A stretch of 64,000 nt of DNA, taken from NCBI RefSeq assembly GCF_014695385.1, contig NZ_JACJOD010000014.1, positions 1 through 64,000 of the forward strand, in the 5' to 3' direction. Source of the stretch: Trichocoleus sp. FACHB-46 (GTDB lineage: Bacteria > Cyanobacteriota > Cyanobacteriia > FACHB-46). This document shows, in pieces, positions 39,110 through 49,806 of this stretch (within the stretch, counting starts at the first letter, position 1; every line of letters starts with the position of its first letter). Under the pieces are notes generated by a model that did no database searches, was not told the origin of the DNA, and saw only the letters and a list, made by a program, of their open reading frames with translations. A program made the translations under genes and the position numbers.

Positions 39110-40444
39110 TCAGCCTGAGAGCTGAGCAGGTATTTCCACATTGCCACGAAACTGTGAGAAGACCTGGTAAGCCGCTAGATTCTGCTTCTGATAACCGTTG
39201 ACGTTTTCTGGGTCTACTTTAACCAAGTTGTACTCTACATCTTCTGCATAAACGGTGAAGATGACGCTGAAGATCTCCAAAAAGTGAATTACCCACTGAC
39301 AATCCGCTTCTTGTAAATTCTCATAGTGTCGAATCAAATCAGCAATACAAGACTCTAGATGAGTCCGAGAGTTTTTGGAAATTAAAATTAATTTGAGCAA
39401 CAGAATTACCAATGTAATTGGGCTCTTCTGCATAACAAATAACGCAAATAGAGAACTTGGCTCTTTACGATTCTCAGTGGTTAAACATTCAATAACTCGA
39501 TTGCAAGTTCTAAGTAACAAAGCATCATCCAAATCTCGCTCATCATGAATTTCGTACAGGGATTCCAAACTACCAAACAATGATTTTTTCACTGATTCTG
39601 CTAAATCTTGATTACTCATAGAGTAGATCAAGTACTTTTTGAGACTGTCCTTAAACTGGCAATAAGTTAACTCTTGGGTTTGTTTTAAGAAAATATTAGC
39701 CAAGTTGGTATAGCTAAATACGCATTTCTTAGCGACTAATCTCTTAATTAAGAGCAGTACCTCGTCTCCTAACAGAGTTGGGTTCTTCAGAGGTACAGTC
39801 TGCACAACATTAGACTGAGATCGAGCTACATATAAAGCTAGATCTCGTTTGTACTGCTCCTTTAACTGTTTTGACAGAACTCTAGCTGTTTCCCGCTGCT
39901 CTACCGAATTTGTGGTATTCACAAACTGAGAAACTAACAAATAAGACGTGTAGCGATGGCTCCAAGGTCTTTCTGGTTGAAATGTGCAAGCAGAAACAAA
40001 TAACTCTAGCTCTTGATAATCGCTGCTGCCGACAAACTTCTCTAGCCAACTATTGAGGCGAGTTAGGATGAGAGAAGCTGTTTTGCGATTGAACTTAATC
40101 TTAGGAAATAATCCAACTAGCTGTTGGATTATCTGATATTTTTTACTGGTATTCCAGTTGTTGATTAAGATGTAACAAGAGCGTTTGAGAGTATTGCGAA
40201 ACTCTTGCTCATCATTGGCAACAATAATTTGATACAGTGCTTGGTTTACCTCCGAGCTGGTCATGTTCACTGAGTGAACAAATAAGCTTTCAAACTCGGT
40301 TAAAGCAACCTCTGGGGAGCATTGCTTGACTGTATGAATCAAGAACTCATAGATTGTTTCCTGAGCCTGTTCAATTCCCTTTGTGAAGTGCTGAAAATGA
40401 GGCTCAGGGTGATAACGCTCGACCGCAGGTTCTTGAATTAACAT
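39110..40444 (-). CDS. Helical protein of unknown function
   Basis: A 444-aa protein with no recognised domain, signal peptide or clear membrane segment. Composition and spacing of Leu/Ile with charged residues suggest an all-helical, repeat-like (solenoid) protein; one hydrophobic helix with ITLVILLLKLILI near residue 357 may be buried core rather than a membrane anchor. It is convergent with the CobO-like gene and follows a 454-bp spacer. It might be a conserved cyanobacterial hypothetical protein, but I cannot confirm it. Confidence 0.6.
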   Translation of the reverse strand: MLIQEPAVERYHPEPHFQHFTKGIEQAQETIYEFLIHTVKQCSPEVALTEFESLFVHSVNMTSSEVNQALYQIIVANDEQEFRNTLKRSCYILINNWNTSKKYQIIQQLVGLFPKIKFNRKTASLILTRLNSWLEKFVGSSDYQELELFVSACTFQPERPWSHRYTSYLLVSQFVNTTNSVEQRETARVLSKQLKEQYKRDLALYVARSQSNVVQTVPLKNPTLLGDEVLLLIKRLVAKKCVFSYTNLANIFLKQTQELTYCQFKDSLKKYLIYSMSNQDLAESVKKSLFGSLESLYEIHDERDLDDALLLRTCNRVIECLTTENRKEPSSLFALFVMQKSPITLVILLLKLILISKNSRTHLESCIADLIRHYENLQEADCQWVIHFLEIFSVIFTVYAEDVEYNLVKVDPENVNGYQKQNLAAYQVFSQFRGNVEIPAQLSG

Positions 40445-40898: not shown

Positions 40899-43088
40899 TT
40901 AGGACCATTGCCGCACCACACTCCCTAGTTCTACGGTATTTAGATGATCCAGGATAAAGGCTTTCCGCAAAAGTTCTGGGGGGACATATTCGTCATATTT
41001 TTGTAGTCTCGGTACCTCATCCGGACCTAGTAATTCTTCAGCCGCCAGTCCACCATCCGCGATCGCCACAATTTCGCATAGCAAGTTTTCGAGCTTGGCT
41101 TTGCCTAACTGTACTGTAAAGAAGTAAGGCGAGCGTCCCCCAATTCCCTTGATTTTCAAGGAGTCTCGGCAGCAGAGCTTCAGGTATCGTTCTAAGGTGC
41201 GGTAAGCGGTGGTGCCCAGCCAGGGGAAGATGCAGCAGCTTTGATCGTCCAGTTGCAGCAAATGATGGCGATCAAGTTCGACTCGTCTGGCCCACTGCCG
41301 CACAGTTTGCAGTCGTTCCTTCGCTCCTGGTTGCAAGTAGCGATACTCGGTATCCTCAAATAGCACCCGGCGCATGCGTTGCAGCACTTTGGTATGCAAT
41401 GTGCCACCGCCCCCTTGCCAAGCACTACTGGCAACCCCGCTGCTAGGTTGCACAAATACCGTTTTGGTTTTGTCGTCAACTTCTAGCACTTGCCACGATC
41501 GCCCTGCTAAAGCCACGCGATCGCCCACATCCGGAGGCAGCGCAATACTGCCAATCGCCGTAGTTCCTTCTTGCACTGTGTATTCTTCACTGTCTGGGAA
41601 AGTGGCGTAGAACTTAAAGCTCCGCACAATACGCTCACCTGCCAGCCCAACGATTAGCGTGCCTTCTGCGGTTTTCTGGATATGGTCAATCTCAATCAGG
41701 TGGCGCAGAAGTTGGCGAAATTCTTCTGGAGCGATCGCTCGGAAAGTCGGTAGCGTGAGCACTTGCTGAGCCAAGGCAGCAGGGGACAACTCTCCCAAAG
41801 CTACCAGCGTACTCATCGTCTGGTGATAGAGCAGGCTCAAGGGATACTGCAACGGTTGAATCGGCTCGATCCAACGTTCTTCTAGATAAAGCTGAAGGAT
41901 GGCGATCGTTTGTAGCAGTTGCCAGGGAATCTGATCGGGCAAAAATTCTGGGTCTACGATCGGATCTTCCACACAGACAAAGCGCATATCCGCAGGCGTT
42001 CCCCGTCGGCCCGATCGCCCTAGCCGCTGTAGAAAACTAGCCACCGAGGGCGGAGACTCCAACTGAATCACTCGCTCTAGTTGTCCAATATCAATCCCCA
42101 TCTCAAAGGTGACGGTTGCTGCTGTCACGGCGGGAGTGGGAGCCCGCATCGCATCTTCCGCTGCTGCTCGTAAGGTGGCGGAGATGCTGCCATGATGCAC
42201 ATGGTAAATATCGGGTAAGCCTTTAGCGGTGGCGACTTGGCGTAAAGTGGCAATTGCTTCTTCGGCAGCAGTGCGATTGTTGGCAAAAATCAGGCACTTG
42301 CGCGACTGCGTTTGGTTGAACAAGTAATTTTGGTACGGGCTAAATGCCGCGTCCCGATTGTCTCCTTTGGCTCGGATTGGCTCTGAGCGGTAGAAATGCT
42401 CCAGAGATAAATGCAGGGTACGTTGCCCCACTTTTACCTCTGGGGTGATCACCGATTGCTGGGTGCCCGATCGCAGCCAATCTTCGGCTAACCCGTAATC
42501 TCCTAGCGTGGCGGATAAACCAATGCGACGAGGATGATTTTGTGTCAGCTTTGCCAGTCGCGCTAGCTGGCAGAGAACTTGGCAACCCCGTTCTGAACCA
42601 ATAAAGGCATGGATTTCATCAATTACCACAAACCGCAGCTCGCCAAACAAGCGATCGAGGTTTTTGCTCTGGTTAATCAACAAACTTTCCAATGATTCAG
42701 GTGTAATTTGTAGCACACCTCTGGGATGCTTCAGCAGCTTTTGTTTCTGGCTCTGTGCCACATCCCCATGCCAAGCCCACACGGGAATATCTGCTTCTTT
42801 TAATAAGTCGTTCAGGCGATCGAACTGGTCATTGATCAGCGCTTTGATCGGGCCGATGTACATCGCGCCAATCGTTTTGGGGGGTGCCTCATACAGCAAG
42901 GTCAGGACTGGCAGAAACGCCGCTTCAGTTTTGCCTGCCGCCGTTCCCGCTGCAATCAACAGATGAGCATCGGTCTCAAAAATCACCCGACAAGCTTCCG
43001 CCTGCACTTGCCGCAAATCTGTCCAACCGTGGCTATAAATATATTCCTGAATAAAGGGGGCTAAGCGGTGATAGGCGCGATCGCTCAT
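40899..43088 (-). CDS. Lhr-type DEAD/DEAH helicase (part of TerB-C/BrxD-like module)
   Basis: Superfamily 2 ATP-dependent helicase of 729 aa. The Q-type motif RQVQAEACRVI is at 26-36, Walker A AGTAAGKTEAAF at 47-58, DEIH in VIDEIHAFIGSERG, motif III SATLGD and motif VI QRLGRSGRRGTP. The large C-terminal region is of the Lhr/BrxHII kind rather than RecQ or RecG. It lies on the same strand as the BrxD-like ATPase and the TerB-C-like/WD40 gene. In other bacteria, helicases of this type neighbour a DUF2791 ATPase; here 2.6 kb of other genes separates them. Confidence 0.9.
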   Translation of the reverse strand: MSDRAYHRLAPFIQEYIYSHGWTDLRQVQAEACRVIFETDAHLLIAAGTAAGKTEAAFLPVLTLLYEAPPKTIGAMYIGPIKALINDQFDRLNDLLKEADIPVWAWHGDVAQSQKQKLLKHPRGVLQITPESLESLLINQSKNLDRLFGELRFVVIDEIHAFIGSERGCQVLCQLARLAKLTQNHPRRIGLSATLGDYGLAEDWLRSGTQQSVITPEVKVGQRTLHLSLEHFYRSEPIRAKGDNRDAAFSPYQNYLFNQTQSRKCLIFANNRTAAEEAIATLRQVATAKGLPDIYHVHHGSISATLRAAAEDAMRAPTPAVTAATVTFEMGIDIGQLERVIQLESPPSVASFLQRLGRSGRRGTPADMRFVCVEDPIVDPEFLPDQIPWQLLQTIAILQLYLEERWIEPIQPLQYPLSLLYHQTMSTLVALGELSPAALAQQVLTLPTFRAIAPEEFRQLLRHLIEIDHIQKTAEGTLIVGLAGERIVRSFKFYATFPDSEEYTVQEGTTAIGSIALPPDVGDRVALAGRSWQVLEVDDKTKTVFVQPSSGVASSAWQGGGGTLHTKVLQRMRRVLFEDTEYRYLQPGAKERLQTVRQWARRVELDRHHLLQLDDQSCCIFPWLGTTAYRTLERYLKLCCRDSLKIKGIGGRSPYFFTVQLGKAKLENLLCEIVAIADGGLAAEELLGPDEVPRLQKYDEYVPPELLRKAFILDHLNTVELGSVVRQWS

Positions 43089-43228
43089 ACAGATTTGTGT
43101 TTCTGGGCTAGTAACCCACCCTACCCGATCTGGCTACTGCTGAAACTGTTTTCCTAATATTGCCTGTTTCAATCCAACGGTTAATAGCGAGTTAGGGCTG
43201 ATTAGGGCGATCGCTCTTATTAGCCTTG

Positions 43229-43582
43229 TTAAATGGAATTTGGATCGGCACCCATAAAGCCTACTTTCACACCAGCAGATTTCATCACTTTCATTGCTTT
43301 ATCGTGCATGAAAAGTAGTATTAATAAGCCCAAAATTGGTACGAGTAGACCAATCATAAGTAATACCATCGATGTGACGGAAAGTTTGAGAGACTTGCCA
43401 AGCTTGTACAACGCAAATATCTGAAGTACTGATGCAGCCACATATACAAACAAACCTATGGATGGCTCTTCTAAAGAAACACGAGATAAGTTAACAGCTA
43501 TAGCGGCTAGAATAGACCATAAAAGTAACCTATGGTACTTAGCAACTTCCTGAATTTCTAGACGTGAAAAAGTTATATTCAT
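43229..43582 (-). CDS. Small membrane protein of unknown function
   Basis: A 117-aa protein with three or four hydrophobic segments (about 17-35, 40-60, 70-92) and a short hydrophilic tail; family not recognised. I chose ATG 43582 (MNITFSRLE) because AAGGA lies about six bases upstream; an in-frame extension to 43621 lacks such a site. It is on the same strand as the helicase, 140 bp upstream of it. Confidence 0.6.
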   Translation of the reverse strand: MNITFSRLEIQEVAKYHRLLLWSILAAIAVNLSRVSLEEPSIGLFVYVAASVLQIFALYKLGKSLKLSVTSMVLLMIGLLVPILGLLILLFMHDKAMKVMKSAGVKVGFMGADPNSI

Positions 43583-43870
43583 AGGTGATCCTTGCAGAGA
43601 ACAGAGAGGTAGACTTAGCAAACTTAGTTCCTATTGTTTTGAAGTGAAGTAAATAGATAAGTGGCTTCTATACTCACGCCAAATTAACATATAAGCAAAA
43701 ATTTGCTGTATAGTATTTCAGTTCAAACAAACAAATAGAAAACCTCAGTAGATTTTTAGAATGACAAAAACCTGGTTTTCTATTTCTGTTTTATCAAAGC
43801 GATCGCCCTTTACTAATTAAGTTAAAAGCGATCGCTTCATTCATCACTGCAAACCAAGTGATGATGTTTT

Positions 43871-44437
43871 TTAACCCTGCTGCAAACAGCGGTTGTTACC
43901 ACTTTGGTCGTTCAAGCAGTTGCCGTTGCGATCGAGAAGTACTACTGAATTGATACTAGGAAATTGCTTCAATGTGGTGGTGATTGAGCTTTTAATTCGA
44001 GCATCATCGCCAATGCCGTTGGACACCACTTGCTTACAGAATTGCAACTTGGCAACACCTGTAGAAACAACTAGCTTAAAGTCTCGACCACAGTTAGAGC
44101 TACCTTGCAAATTGAGCGGGGCTCTAAAACCTTGTTGTCTTTCTTGGCTGGTTGGGCCTGCGACTAATTGCTCAATGGCAAATTGGGCCACCCCTTGAGT
44201 TTGGGTGCGTCGTACTACAGGAGCCACGTAAGAGAAATCTTGTTGGCTGCGGCTGGTGGGGAAAAACACTTTGACTGGCTTGGTGCTGGTTGTAGCAGCA
44301 ACAGTCGAGGCTTGGGCTACGTTGCCAACAGGTTTGGCTTCTGTCGGGCGGTTGTCGTAGAGGCTAACTCCAGCGAGGGTAGCGATCGCTAAACAAGAGA
44401 AGAGAGAGTTACGTAAATTGAACATGTCTTTGGGCAA
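43871..44437 (-). CDS. GerMN-domain exported protein
   Basis: A 188-aa protein with an N-terminal signal peptide (hydrophobic run at about 9-22, SCLAIATLAGVSL) and a GerMN domain (about 52-175), recognised from VKVFFPTSR, AIEQLVAGPTSQERQQGF and the closing KQFPSINSVVLLDRNG. GerMN domains occur in spore germination and in many non-sporulating bacteria, probably binding cell-wall-related ligands outside the membrane. Paired cysteines (for example in SSNCGRDF, LQFCKQ, GNCLND and NRCLQQ) suggest disulphides in an exported protein. A start four codons later (44425, MFNLRN) is possible. Confidence 0.75.
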   Translation of the reverse strand: MPKDMFNLRNSLFSCLAIATLAGVSLYDNRPTEAKPVGNVAQASTVAATTSTKPVKVFFPTSRSQQDFSYVAPVVRRTQTQGVAQFAIEQLVAGPTSQERQQGFRAPLNLQGSSNCGRDFKLVVSTGVAKLQFCKQVVSNGIGDDARIKSSITTTLKQFPSINSVVLLDRNGNCLNDQSGNNRCLQQG

Positions 44438-44658
44438 GTATTGTGTGATTGCTAAAAGTGAGCTTCACTGTGCGATCGTCCAATTCCTAAACCTCTGCAA
44501 TAGAATTTTCTGTAACTCTTATTGTCTCAATTCAACCATTAGCAGGAAGCCAAAAAAGATAGGTGATTCCTCTCTCCAAGTTCAACAGTAGTGGTAATGA
44601 TGATCAGCTTATCAATGAGATGGGAACTCTATAAAAAATAAATAGAGAGACTAATACC

Positions 44659-44955
44659 GTGAAAAAGGGCGATCATATCTATGTTGATCGTGGTTCCTGC
44701 AAGCAGCATGGAATATACGTTGGTGAAGATTTAGTTGTTTACTGGACAGATCAGGATTCAAAAAGTGGTCAACTTTGTCGAGTGAGTCTCGCAGAATTTA
44801 CTCAAGGTGCAAATTCCAAAGTCAGGAAATATGCTTGCAGATGTATTGATCGAGAAAAAACAATTAAAAAAGCGGAAACAAGACTCAAAGAAAAAAGCTT
44901 AAATATAAATTTATTAATAGCAAGGACTTCGCTATTTATTGTAGGACTGGTCTAA
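44659..44955 (+). CDS. LRAT-domain protein copy 1, frameshifted and probably inactive
   Basis: Related to the next gene: both begin with GDHIY and have a HGIYxG motif (His17 here). In this copy the second His is replaced by Tyr (VVYW). The reading frame leaves the family pattern after about residue 78, at a run of six A (44891-44896). Shifting frame there by one base restores a degenerate NCEHFA-like end (INSKDFAIYCRTG) in which the catalytic Cys is replaced. That shifted frame has no stop and runs straight into the ATG of the second copy. So this is either a decayed first half of a tandem-domain gene, a slippage-decoded gene, or a sequencing error. Confidence 0.6.
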   Translation: MKKGDHIYVDRGSCKQHGIYVGEDLVVYWTDQDSKSGQLCRVSLAEFTQGANSKVRKYACRCIDREKTIKKAETRLKEKSLNINLLIARTSLFIVGLV

Positions 44956-44957
44956 AA

Positions 44958-45416
44958 ATGGGTGATCATATCTATGCTGATTATGGTCACTGCTTTCATC
45001 ATGGAATCTATTGTGGTGATGATGAAGTTATTCACTACGTAAATGCCAAAAGAATTGGTAAAACTTTATTGTCTAAATTTGCCAAGACACAAAAAATTCA
45101 TATAAAACGCCATCGCAAATCATTTTCACAAACCAGAGTTGTAAAGAGAGCTAAACGACGCTTAGGCGAACGAAACTACAATCTAATTTTCAATAACTGT
45201 GAGCATTTCGCAAATTGGTGCAAGACAGGAAAGTCGAAGTGTGAACAACCCCCAAAAATCATCCTTAAAGGCGTTAAAGTCTTTGCCCATGAGGGTGAGA
45301 AGATTACTAAGGAGATTGGAGGAACGCAAGAAAATATAAAAAGAGAAGCTTCTCGAATAAAGAGGAAGATAGCAAGAGATGCCTCCAAAATTTCCCGAAG
45401 GTTTAGACTCTGGTAG
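44958..45416 (+). CDS. LRAT-domain (NlpC/P60-like) protein copy 2
   Basis: A 152-aa protein of the LRAT/H-rev107-type fold, a circularly permuted papain-like group that includes acyltransferases and lipid hydrolases. The catalytic set appears intact: His15 in HHGIYCG, His26 in EVIHY, and nucleophile Cys81 in NNCEHFANWC. The C-terminal 50 residues are lysine/arginine-rich and helical. It starts 2 bp after the stop of the first, degenerate copy. The pair is AT-richer than surrounding genes and on the opposite strand from its neighbours, consistent with later acquisition. Substrate unknown. Confidence 0.75.
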   Translation: MGDHIYADYGHCFHHGIYCGDDEVIHYVNAKRIGKTLLSKFAKTQKIHIKRHRKSFSQTRVVKRAKRRLGERNYNLIFNNCEHFANWCKTGKSKCEQPPKIILKGVKVFAHEGEKITKEIGGTQENIKREASRIKRKIARDASKISRRFRLW

Positions 45417-45654
45417 AAATAGCTAGCTAGCTTTGAGAAGTTGTAGATGACCAAGGTTTATCAGTCAGGAAAAATTCTTTCTAGATTAAGAGATCGCTCT
45501 GATAAATTAGAAGTAATTACGGACTCATGGGCAAGTGAAAATTATTGCGATTCCTAGCCGAAATTGTCTTGGAGGTCTTGATAGCGTTAGGCGATCGCTC
45601 TCTCTAAGTTCAGCAATAGGGAAAGCGATCGCCTACTAATCTTTATTCCTACGA

Positions 45655-46983
45655 TTACAAGGTAAATTCTGCGAATTCTCCGGTTTCGTCTACTTTGGTG
45701 TCTTTGCCTGAACGGGTGGGTTGAAAATTGGTGCCGCCGAGCAATTGGGTGAGGGAGAGTTTGGGGTTTTGGTGGAGTAGGTTGAGGGCACTGATGAAGT
45801 CGTGGACAATTTCGCCAGGGGTGAGTAGGGCTTCCGCACCGAGACGATTGGTGATTTCTTTGAGGAAGGCTTGCAGGTCGCGATTATTGAGGGAGGCTTG
45901 GTAAGCGTAATGAGCGGCATGGACTTCTGCCAAGCGTTGTAGCAGTTGAAGGATTTCTGGTTGGGTAAGGGGCTCTAGCCGAATCACGGGGCCAGAGGTA
46001 TCTTGCAGACCTGGCTGAGCAAAGCGACTTTGAGCGGTGCGGCGTTGCCAGGCGGGGTCGCTGTAGAGCCCTCGGCGCGAATCTTCGAGAAATTGTGGGG
46101 TGCCACCGATGATGATGTCGAGATGTCCGACTCGACCTTGCACGGTGTCATTAAACATTGCCAACAACTTGTCGTAATTGTTCTGGCGGGAACCTGCATG
46201 GGTGATTTTGTAGAGATGCACTGCCTCATCTAGCAGCACCAGCAAACCTTTGTAGCCGATGCTTGAGACAAACTTGGCAAAGAGTTTGATGTAGTCGTAC
46301 CAAGTTTCATCATCAATGATCACCTTCACGCCCAAGGCTGCTTTCGCGTCGGATTTGGTCGAGAATTCTCCTCGCAGCCAACGCAGAGCCGAATCTTTAA
46401 GCTGGTCGTCATCGGTGCGGTAGCCCCGCCAGTAAGCGATGATTACACTGGCGAAGTCGAAGCCGTGAACCAGCCCTTCCAAGGTTTGCACTACTTCCCG
46501 GATTTTGACTTCTACCAAGTCATCAAAGCCTTCATCTTTGGGACGTTTGCCGCTTTCTTGCGCGACTTGAGTTAAGACACCGCTAATCCAGCGTTCTAGA
46601 ATTAGGGCGATCGCACCACCGTCTGGATTCGTTTTTGTGGCAATGTTTTGCATCAACTCGCGATAAGTAGCGATACTTTGTCCACTGGCTCCTGCTAAGC
46701 GGCGTTCGGGAGACAAATCAGCATCAGCGACCACAAAACCTTGCTCCATCGCTTGATTGCGGATCAGTTGCAGGATAAAGCTTTTACCAGAGCCGTAGCG
46801 ACCGACGACAAACCGGAAGGCTGCACCACCTTCAGCCGTATTTTCCAGATCTTGCACTAGAGCTTTGGCTTCCACTTCCCGACCCACGGCAATTTGCTCT
46901 AGACCAATTCTGGGCACGACTCCCGCACCCAAGGCATTGATCAAGGCTGTGGATACGCGCTTAGAAAGTTTCTGCTTTGCCAT
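45655..46983 (-). CDS. BrxD-like P-loop ATPase (DUF2791, BREX-type ATP-binding domain)
   Basis: A 442-aa P-loop NTPase. Walker A is GRYGSGKS (61-68) and Walker B LLVLLDEAVH (247-256). The opening RVSTALINALGAGVVPRIGLE and the VGREVE motif, the conserved YRELMQNIA and AYWRGY blocks, and the closing GEIVHDFISALNLL fit the DUF2791 family, annotated as BREX system ATP-binding protein. It lies 51 bp after the TerB-C-like/WD40 gene on the same strand and probably shares its transcript. The usual BREX partners (PglX, PglZ, BrxC) are absent here, so this is not a classical BREX locus. Confidence 0.85.
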   Translation of the reverse strand: MAKQKLSKRVSTALINALGAGVVPRIGLEQIAVGREVEAKALVQDLENTAEGGAAFRFVVGRYGSGKSFILQLIRNQAMEQGFVVADADLSPERRLAGASGQSIATYRELMQNIATKTNPDGGAIALILERWISGVLTQVAQESGKRPKDEGFDDLVEVKIREVVQTLEGLVHGFDFASVIIAYWRGYRTDDDQLKDSALRWLRGEFSTKSDAKAALGVKVIIDDETWYDYIKLFAKFVSSIGYKGLLVLLDEAVHLYKITHAGSRQNNYDKLLAMFNDTVQGRVGHLDIIIGGTPQFLEDSRRGLYSDPAWQRRTAQSRFAQPGLQDTSGPVIRLEPLTQPEILQLLQRLAEVHAAHYAYQASLNNRDLQAFLKEITNRLGAEALLTPGEIVHDFISALNLLHQNPKLSLTQLLGGTNFQPTRSGKDTKVDETGEFAEFTL

Positions 46984-47034
46984 GTGTCTTTGCTCGGTCT
47001 TGTAGTGGCTGATGTGGATTGGTACGAGTGTCTG

Positions 47035-49806
47035 TTAACTGTACCGCCAAACTCTGATGGTCTGGTCGGCGCTACTGCTAACCAATGTATTGCTATCTGG
47101 CGCAAAGGCGATCGCACAAATTTTAGCCGTATGGTCGCTCAAAGTGGTTAGTAATTCTCTCGACTCTAAACTCCAAACTTTGAGTGTGCCATCTTCACCG
47201 CCACTAGCTAAGAACTGACCATTGGGGCTAATGGCAACTGCCGATACTTGACCTTTATGCAACGCGAGGCTGGAACTAACGTCTGGCTTTAAATCCCAAA
47301 GCTTGATGGTGCTGTCTGCACCACCACTGACCAAGGTTTTGCCATCGGGGCTAAATGCCATTGAGCAAACTTTACTGCCATGAGCGGGCAGCGAGTTGAA
47401 ACTTGTTTTGGTGTCTAAATTCCAGAGGTGAATGGTGCCATTTTGATCACCACTGGCCAGAATGTCTCTGTCAGGACGAGGGCTGAAAACCACTGAGGTG
47501 ATGAAGCCATAACCATTGATGGCTTGGAGTAACTTCCCACTTCTGATATCCCATACCTTAATGGTGCGATCGGCACTGCCACTGGCGAGCAACTGTCCAT
47601 CTGGGCTAACGGCGATCGCATTCACGGCGGTTGTATGTCCGGTGAGGGTTCGTAATAATTTCCCTGCCTTGAGATTCCAGACTTTAATCGTGTTGCTGCT
47701 GCCACTGCTAAACAACAGCTTGCCGCCGGGATGTAGAGCTAGGGCATAAATCGAGCCAGAGTTTTCTGGGTGAGGGAGGGTTTGCACCCATTTACCTTCC
47801 AGCGCCCAAACTTGCAGCTTGTTGTCACTACCACCACTAATTAAGGTTTGGCTATCCGGGGTGACTACTAAAGCATTGGCTCCACTCTCAAAGATCACCC
47901 GACATTTCCAGGTGCCCAGTTTGGAGGGTAGCGCCGCGATCGCTGTTGGCACATCCGCCACCTCAACATCAATGGTCGTGACCGGAAAACTTTCCCGACC
48001 CACAACTGCAATCGCTCGCTGCAAATACTCCTCATAGTCCTCATAAATTTGTGGAATCAGCGAGGAGGTTCCAGGCTCAAAAATCAGGTCATCAATGATG
48101 GCATCCGCTTTCTCGTTAATTGCATCCACCAGCATTTGCGGCATGGTGGGCACCCCATCGGCAATCTGTCGTAGTTCTTCCGCGTCTTGTCGCAGAATCG
48201 CTTCTAATGCCCAATATTCAGAGTCGGAAAGTTGATTAATCAGCTCGTGCCACTCAGGAGGTAAAAAAGGTCTTTGATCTGCATCTGGATTAGATGTAGG
48301 AACAGGCAGTTCAGACGGTGGCGCGATCGCTGGAAGTACGGATTCAACTGTTATAAGTCTGCCAGGAAGAGATTCTCGACTCGAAACCTGTGCTAGCAGA
48401 GTTTCCAGAGATGTTTCTAGTTCGCGCCTTTGAGTGGCGATCGTTCCTAGTAGCGCTTGAATCTCTGACTTCAGCGGCTGTAGATCGATTCCAGCCACTA
48501 GCCCCGCAATTTCCGATTTCAGCGGTTGCAGATCGATTGCGGCAACTAGGGATTGAATCTCTGACTTCAGCAGTTGCAAATCGAGTGTTGGGGTTTCCGC
48601 TTTTAACGGCTGTGTATCGATCGCCGTCACTAGTGATTGAATTTCTGACTTCAGCGGTTGCAGATCGATCGCCGTCACTAATTCTGCAATTTCCGACCTC
48701 AAGGGTTGTAAGTCAATCTTTTGAATTTCCGATTTCAGCGGCTCTACATCGATCGCAGAAATGATGGTTTGGATTTCCGACTTCAATGACTGTGCATCAA
48801 TAGTTGAAATTAATGCTTCAATCTTTGATCTCAAAGCTTGGACATCGATCGCGGCAACTAGGGATCGGATTTCTGATTTCAGCGGTTGCAGATCGATCGT
48901 AGTGACTAATTCCTGAATCTCCGATTTCAACAACGGCACATTGATGGCTGCCGCTAGCTCTTGAATCTCGGCTCTTAGTGGCTCAATGTCGATCGTTGCA
49001 ACTAATCCTTGGATTTCCGTTTTTAATGGCTGCACATCCACAGCAGAAATGATGGTTTGAATCTCCGCCTTCAACGGCTCTATATCGATGGCTGCTAGGT
49101 CCGTCAGAGACTGGTTTAGAGTTTGTCGCGATCGCTCTAGCGTTTGAATTTGCGCTTGCAAATCTCCCGTCTGGGATTCTAATAATCGTTTGCTCGTTTG
49201 TAGTGCGGCAACATCGCTGTGGAGTTGGAGTTTCTGAGTCGTAAACTCAGCAGCTTGAGCCTTGAGTTGCGTTAGTTCTTGCTGGAGCTGGCCCACATCA
49301 ACCGCTAAAGTTTGCCGCGCCTCGTTCGTAGTGGCGATCGCTTGCTGGATTTCACCTTCCTGCGCTGCCAAATCCTGTAGCCGTTCTTGCCACTGCTGAA
49401 AACTAGCTTCCAGCTGCTGCTTGCGACCTTCCAAAGTAGCGATCGCTTGACCTAATTCCCGATCTTGCTGTTGTTGTTCAGCAATTCGAGTTTGAAGCTT
49501 TTCAAGGTCAGCTTGCAAAAAGCTCAAACTGGTTTCGGCTTGTTGCCTTTCTGCGGTTGCACTCAGAAGGGCTTGCTGGATTTCGGCTTGCCGTTGCTCG
49601 TAAGCCTGCAACTGTCCCGCGATCGCCTGTCCCTTTAATCGGGCTTGCTGCTTCTGGCGATCGTCAATGGCAACGGCACCTGCATAGGCACCCGGCGCAA
49701 TCAACCCGGTGAGGAGCGATCGCTGCAAGTTTCGCTCAGCGAGAAAACTCAAGCCAAAGCTAAGGCCGAAAGCGGCTGAACCGATGACAATCCGATTGAC
49801 TAGCAT
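47035..49806 (-). CDS. Membrane-anchored coiled-coil / TerB-C-like / WD40 protein
   Basis: A 923-aa protein with four parts. Residues 8-24 and 31-47 are hydrophobic and may anchor it in the membrane. Residues about 50-240 are a long coiled coil. Residues 240-455 are 14 tandem units, mostly 16 aa (consensus IDLQPLKSEIQSLVTA). Residues about 516-597 resemble the TerB C-terminal domain (LRQIADGVPTMPQMLVDAINEK-type block in pieces, then a VIYEDY-like IYEDYEEYL). The C-terminus (about 630-923) is about seven WD40 repeats with SPDGxxLxSGSxDxTIKVW motifs, forming a beta-propeller. It is probably the first gene of a transcript with the BrxD-like ATPase. TerB-C recognition is by eye. Confidence 0.8.
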   Translation of the reverse strand: MLVNRIVIGSAAFGLSFGLSFLAERNLQRSLLTGLIAPGAYAGAVAIDDRQKQQARLKGQAIAGQLQAYEQRQAEIQQALLSATAERQQAETSLSFLQADLEKLQTRIAEQQQQDRELGQAIATLEGRKQQLEASFQQWQERLQDLAAQEGEIQQAIATTNEARQTLAVDVGQLQQELTQLKAQAAEFTTQKLQLHSDVAALQTSKRLLESQTGDLQAQIQTLERSRQTLNQSLTDLAAIDIEPLKAEIQTIISAVDVQPLKTEIQGLVATIDIEPLRAEIQELAAAINVPLLKSEIQELVTTIDLQPLKSEIRSLVAAIDVQALRSKIEALISTIDAQSLKSEIQTIISAIDVEPLKSEIQKIDLQPLRSEIAELVTAIDLQPLKSEIQSLVTAIDTQPLKAETPTLDLQLLKSEIQSLVAAIDLQPLKSEIAGLVAGIDLQPLKSEIQALLGTIATQRRELETSLETLLAQVSSRESLPGRLITVESVLPAIAPPSELPVPTSNPDADQRPFLPPEWHELINQLSDSEYWALEAILRQDAEELRQIADGVPTMPQMLVDAINEKADAIIDDLIFEPGTSSLIPQIYEDYEEYLQRAIAVVGRESFPVTTIDVEVADVPTAIAALPSKLGTWKCRVIFESGANALVVTPDSQTLISGGSDNKLQVWALEGKWVQTLPHPENSGSIYALALHPGGKLLFSSGSSNTIKVWNLKAGKLLRTLTGHTTAVNAIAVSPDGQLLASGSADRTIKVWDIRSGKLLQAINGYGFITSVVFSPRPDRDILASGDQNGTIHLWNLDTKTSFNSLPAHGSKVCSMAFSPDGKTLVSGGADSTIKLWDLKPDVSSSLALHKGQVSAVAISPNGQFLASGGEDGTLKVWSLESRELLTTLSDHTAKICAIAFAPDSNTLVSSSADQTIRVWRYS
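48442..49089 (-). repeat. Tandem 48-bp repeats encoding 16-aa units
   Basis: Fourteen consecutive units, twelve of 48 bp and two shortened to 36 bp, encode variants of the 16-aa consensus IDLQPLKSEIQSLVTA (residues 240-455 of the coiled-coil/WD40 protein). The units differ by substitutions, mostly keep Leu, Glu and Ile positions, and would continue the helical rod. Confidence 0.85.

Follow-up and report, generated by a model that had tools for sequence, protein, structure and literature searches.

The locus at 40,899-49,806 of the window, the 64,000-nucleotide stretch of Trichocoleus sp. FACHB-46 DNA that was analysed, belongs to a known system, Shango; what is new is its form, in which SngA has been rebuilt and the operon has come apart. 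It is probably a remodelled Shango module in which an anchored SngA would dock the ATPase SngB through its TerB_C domain, and the helicase SngC would act on DNA near the membrane.

The three genes and their Shango counterparts

The features of the locus are as follows:

47035..49806, minus strand: SngA1, 923 aa, intact ORF
SngA1 N-terminus, residues about 1-50: membrane hairpin
SngA1 residues 51-240: coiled coil
SngA1 residues about 241-460: rod of 16-residue repeats
SngA1 residues about 510-600: TerB_C domain
SngA1 residues about 640-923: WD40 propeller, seven repeats
48006..48275, minus strand: TerB_C codons of SngA1 (residues about 511-600), the sole part of canonical SngA retained
45655..46983, minus strand: SngB, 442 aa, BrxC/BrxD-class P-loop ATPase, intact ORF
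43229..45416, no strand assigned: genes between SngB and SngC (GerMN-type, LRAT-domain, and small hypothetical ORFs by Pfam), outside the system
40899..43088, minus strand: SngC, 729 aa, Lhr/BrxHI-like superfamily 2 helicase, intact ORF

The initial annotation had placed three minus-strand genes here, with 51 bp between the ATPase gene and that of the 923-aa protein, and all were recovered intact at those positions; the SngA1 gene lies directly upstream of sngB. It had also proposed that the three families belong together, and their domain list is that of Shango (SngABC), known from P. aeruginosa PA14 (cDHS1), where a TerB-like protein is combined with an ATPase and a DEAD/DEAH helicase (PMC10250203). 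The further suggestion of an undescribed cyanobacterial system holds insofar as this is a cyanobacterial variant, but the triad itself is Shango, already published with anti-phage data; that activity was obtained with canonical copies only and was modest, against many but not all of the phages tested (PMC10250203). No published mechanism for Shango was found in the literature. The system reportedly also features in work by Millman and colleagues from 2022.

The ATPase matched the PADLOC SngB model over residues 1-440 of 442 (2.3e-177, 588.5 bits) and PF10923 (BrxC_BrxD) at 2.4e-165, with both Walker A (GRYGSGKS) and Walker B (LLVLLDEA) intact. The helicase matched PADLOC SngC over residues 1-721 of 729 (1.1e-248, 825.7 bits); its Pfam matches to DEAD, Helicase_C, and WH_Lhr agree with the Lhr type assigned initially, and the motifs AAGTAAGKT, DEIH, SAT, and QRLGRSGR are all intact. 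By sequence, neither SngB nor SngC departs from the usual full-length Shango component. The locus thus resembles Shango in its full-length SngB and SngC with catalytic motifs, in the TerB_C tail of SngA, and in the order of sngA before sngB. No relatives of TerB_C or SngB with solved structures were found by sequence.

Architecture of the cyanobacterial SngA

The TerB-C domain predicted at residues 516-597 of the 923-aa protein was borne out: the stretch of residues ~510-600, scanned alone, matched PF15615 (3.2e-8, 34.3 bits, cutoff 26.3) and the end of the PADLOC SngA model (450-525/528, 4.4e-11), and the TerB_C profile matched the same genome at G000:C14:48004-48264. As a whole, SngA1 matched PADLOC SngA weakly (8.6e-6), and the best 25 of 78 families in its whole-protein Pfam scan were nearly all WD40-type, TerB_C not being among these. 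The outcome that the initial annotation had named as counting against its proposal, no TerB-C match and no conserved proximity of the three families, is therefore not the one found.

Canonical SngA proteins, represented by one from Paenibacillus, one each from an Anaerolineales and a Desulfobacca MAG, and two from relatives in other classes of the same phylum, consist of TerB_N, often TerB, and TerB_C, and score 142-345 bits with PADLOC SngA. The SngA beside cyanobacterial-type SngB, in contrast, lacks TerB_N and TerB and consists of a membrane hairpin, a long coiled coil, and TerB_C, to which SngA1 of the window adds the rod and the WD40 propeller. In Paenibacillus, Limnochordia, Heimdallarchaeota, and others, a profile of the cyanobacterial TerB_C (A1) nevertheless matched the very C-terminal end of the canonical SngA whose gene immediately precedes that of SngB (i-E down to 1e-18); the tails are thus homologous, and the N-terminal portion has been replaced. 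Whole-genome searches of six cyanobacteria gave no TerB_N, the positive controls G020 and G124 giving matches; the window's SngA has TerB_C, and TerB_N was not found genome-wide. Since Shango calls for TerB_N, the locus is a Shango derivative and not canonical Shango. In oxygenic cyanobacteria, SngA has evidently lost TerB_N and TerB and kept its last ~90 residues, TerB_C; an SngA cut down to this indispensable-looking part points to the site at which SngA contacts the ATPase and the helicase.

The hydrophobic segments of SngA1 lie at about residues 5-24 and 29-49, its rod has a 16-residue period, and the WD40 propeller that ends it after TerB_C occurs in all three of the three genomes of the window's genus, in proteins of 909-935 aa with the same architecture; the fusion was for this reason rejected as an assembly artefact. 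The anchor, rod, and WD40 fusion described initially is thus present in all its parts, but this genus alone was seen to have the WD40 fusion; anchor, coil, and TerB_C are the general form in system-carrying cyanobacteria. SngB and SngC share 96-98% identity among the three species of the genus. SngA1 compared with its counterpart in L040 is identical in the membrane part (100%), with 89% identity in the propeller and 57% in TerB_C; compared with that in L039, TerB_C shares 90% and the rod 61%. Such fast, segment-wise change, seen across three genomes, would fit diversifying pressure.

A second copy, SngA2 (432 aa; hairpin, coil, and TerB_C), is encoded on contig C11 of the same genome (L101:7431-8729), away from SngB and DUF815; it has counterparts in the sister genomes (L240, L241) and shares 93-96% identity across the genus. 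SngA2 and the plain cyanobacterial SngA proteins (L101; L045, L121, and others) have the membrane hairpin, coil, and TerB_C in common with SngA1 but, unlike it, carry neither the 16-residue-repeat rod nor the propeller. In the predicted structure of a plain SngA (L121, 380 aa), a two-helix hairpin is followed by a continuous helix (residues 27-276), a low-confidence linker, and a TerB_C head; the helix (~250 residues) would be about 37 nm long at 0.15 nm per residue, in a model with a low pTM of 0.30. The AlphaFold model of TerB_C (pLDDT 87) returned nothing at E<=0.001 in Foldseek and reached Z of about 5-6 with several helix-turn-helix proteins in VIA-align; these values are below match level, so DNA binding by TerB_C is not claimed.

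In G298, a 289-aa SngA with a hydrophobic N-terminus, coil, and TerB_C (L070:8193-9062) precedes an SngB of another clade, and SngC lies on a different contig from SngB. This anchored SngA apparently has a separate origin and may be a parallel.

Dispersal, inheritance, and possible function

In the 386 phylum genomes sampled, cyanobacterial-type SngC is always accompanied by SngB, and the 38 class members in which SngC is strong all have an SngB that is strong too (37 of the cyanobacterial type, plus G298); SngB without an intact SngC occurs only in G336 and G387. The system is absent from most cyanobacterial families sampled. Its genes are dispersed: of the 37 genomes, 9 have SngC no more than 300 bp from SngB and 8 have it within 10 kb; in 9 the two share a contig at a greater distance (16 kb to 3.7 Mb), and in 11 they are on different contigs. 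At the Trichocoleus sp. FACHB-46 locus, sngC is preceded by 2.6 kb of unrelated genes, the same separation from the ATPase gene that had been noted initially. Canonical Shango, in contrast, is a contiguous three-gene operon; among the named genomes, SngC was within 300 bp of SngB at 7 of the 27 cyanobacterial loci and at 43 of the 45 that come from other phyla (Fisher p = 5e-10, indicative only, related genomes being non-independent). Chance neighbours were rejected on the grounds of co-occurrence and trees; the genes now lie scattered over the chromosome but continue to be inherited and lost together. Gene-neighbourhood searches would tend to miss a defence system with such a dissolved operon, given the low score of the SngA model and the frequent lack of adjacency among the genes.

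Cyanobacterial-type SngB forms one clade (SH-aLRT 99) that follows the family codes, as does the SngC tree save for the long-branched G118, and the two clades are congruent. In family f7, r is 0.91-0.93 when pairwise distances are compared among SngB, SngC, and the housekeeping gene DUF815, and 0.97 for SngC against DUF815 among unlinked copies; the mean distance of SngB is 0.17 versus 0.25 for the DUF815 gene. On the DUF815 tree, the presence of SngB and SngC changes jointly in four of four supported independent pairs, which are too few for significance alone. G286 has neither SngB nor SngC; the site from which SngB is missing has flanks that otherwise resemble those in the relative G253. Relatives of SngB were found on 688 plasmid records (542 predicted conjugative) in a collection that includes Nostoc, Tolypothrix, and Calothrix plasmids; all are under 60% identity, and intact cyanobacterial-type copies share 62% or more, so no plasmid SngB is of the cyanobacterial type. 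No SngB relatives were found in the phage collection. Trees and distances alike indicate that the set is vertically inherited in oxygenic cyanobacteria, a difference from the canonical relatives, which are frequent on conjugative plasmids.

In the mechanism that we propose, SngA would be a membrane-anchored mast holding TerB_C on a flexible linker, and TerB_C would dock the SngB ATPase. In response to DNA or to a propeller ligand, SngB would then load or license SngC on membrane-near DNA, for example incoming phage or foreign DNA, and SngC would translocate along and unwind this target, blocking its establishment or replication. Destruction of the DNA would be left to host nucleases, since no nuclease is among the three genes. 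Such a long membrane-anchored structure bringing a helicase to DNA at the envelope would recall Zorya, a ZorAB membrane complex with ZorC and ZorD, by analogy only; there is no MotAB-like motor here, and homology is not expected.

The best reading is a vertically inherited, membrane-tethered Shango derivative that would watch or process DNA near the membrane. A defence system would not usually be inherited vertically, evolve slowly, and keep a fixed place beside DUF815; defence is nonetheless placed somewhat ahead, with domestication close behind, because of the known activity of the family and the pattern of loss and decay. It is quite conceivable, if rather short of probable, that a mobile phage-defence system was captured by an ancestor of several cyanobacterial families, that its sensor was replaced by an anchored rod at the membrane, and that it has since settled as a vertically inherited, resident machine, its genes scattered but kept or lost as a unit. 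If it still defends, filamentous cyanobacteria would own a resident membrane-based DNA surveillance system.

A more tentative proposal is that an ancestor captured the system once and domesticated it for a cellular DNA task at the membrane rather than phage defence, candidate tasks being repair, segregation, DNA uptake, or control of gene transfer; this would be an unambiguous example of the conversion of a defence system into core machinery. Such a housekeeping role would be in keeping with vertical inheritance at a near-fixed position beside DUF815 in Nostocaceae-like genomes, with distances that track the host gene (r = 0.91-0.93), with an SngB that evolves more slowly than DUF815, with genes dispersed like ordinary cellular genes, and with the lack of cyanobacterial-type SngB on plasmids although 688 of them carry relatives. 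However, the set has been lost several times, has decayed in G387, and is absent from most cyanobacterial families sampled; no non-Shango domain points to a cellular pathway, and the 57% identity between species in the TerB_C of SngA1, against 89-100% in membrane part and propeller, is as in conflict systems.

In G387 (L084), stop codons interrupt both SngB and SngC; SngA and DUF815 remain open.

The DUF815 neighbourhood, BREX relatives, and flanking genes

SngA often adjoins DUF815, and does so at a near-fixed position in Nostocaceae-like genomes. DUF815 (PF05673) is an ATPase gene present in single copy in 139 of the 386 phylum genomes (e.g., L045:6221-7576). Seven sampled genomes retain SngA with TerB_C and have no SngB or SngC, so SngA may have another job. 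G007, G235, and G151 have no SngB or SngC; their coil protein next to DUF815 is without TerB_C, and no TerB_C was found elsewhere in these three genomes. TerB_C is present in every sampled genome that has SngB and SngC of the cyanobacterial type. This distribution fits, indirectly, TerB_C being the part that serves SngB and SngC. Coil proteins beside DUF815 without TerB_C were located at L117:6075-7175, L118:8625-9692, and L221 (a 341-aa ORF), in genomes without SngB and SngC.

That SngA stays beside DUF815 in the seven genomes without SngB and SngC, and that coil proteins lacking TerB_C (L117, L118, L221) are also found there, could mean that DUF815 and the SngA coil protein are a pair with its own function, from which SngB and SngC borrow SngA in some genomes. 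Two independent units of this kind are unlikely, however: sampled genomes with cyanobacterial-type SngB and SngC always have a TerB_C-bearing SngA, TerB_C has been lost only where SngB and SngC have been lost, G298 with its canonical-type SngB has a TerB_C protein of its own, and in the window's genus SngA1 lies beside SngB and DUF815 is on another contig.

The ATPase had initially been called BREX-type and BrxD-like; the PF10923 match upholds the broader class, but BrxD is the wrong family, its models scoring 177-179 bits on SngB, under the NCBIfam cutoff of 350, versus 588 for SngB. Likewise, the BrxHI model scores 442 bits on the helicase versus 826 for SngC; SngC, BrxHI, DruE, and DpdJ are reported to form one helicase clade (PMC12278908). 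PglZ (PF08665) had no match across the whole genome, the positive controls giving matches, which agrees with the initial statement that classical BREX is absent and excludes BREX. A BREX remnant, in which BrxD and BrxHI are left over from a BREX type beside an unrelated coiled-coil protein, draws on the real kinship of the ATPase and helicase families but is exceedingly improbable and was rejected on the family scores, the missing PglZ, and the SngA tail borne by the coiled-coil neighbour, the same trio moreover being found again in dozens of cyanobacteria.

No defence genes were found near the locus, the ten flanking genes giving weak partial matches only (in two cases, an ABC transporter and a methyltransferase-like protein), and a surrounding defence island was rejected accordingly. 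A conserved role for the genes between SngB and SngC was also rejected, as the set varies between the sister genomes L039 and L040. Downstream of SngC, a 444-aa protein (39110-40444, minus strand) had no confident Pfam, NCBIfam, or PADLOC match and is conserved in the sister genome L039 (89%). Two adjacent LRAT-domain ORFs of 98 and 152 aa (44659-45416, plus strand) correspond to a single 274-aa gene in both sister genomes, and the LRAT gene thus looks split in the window.
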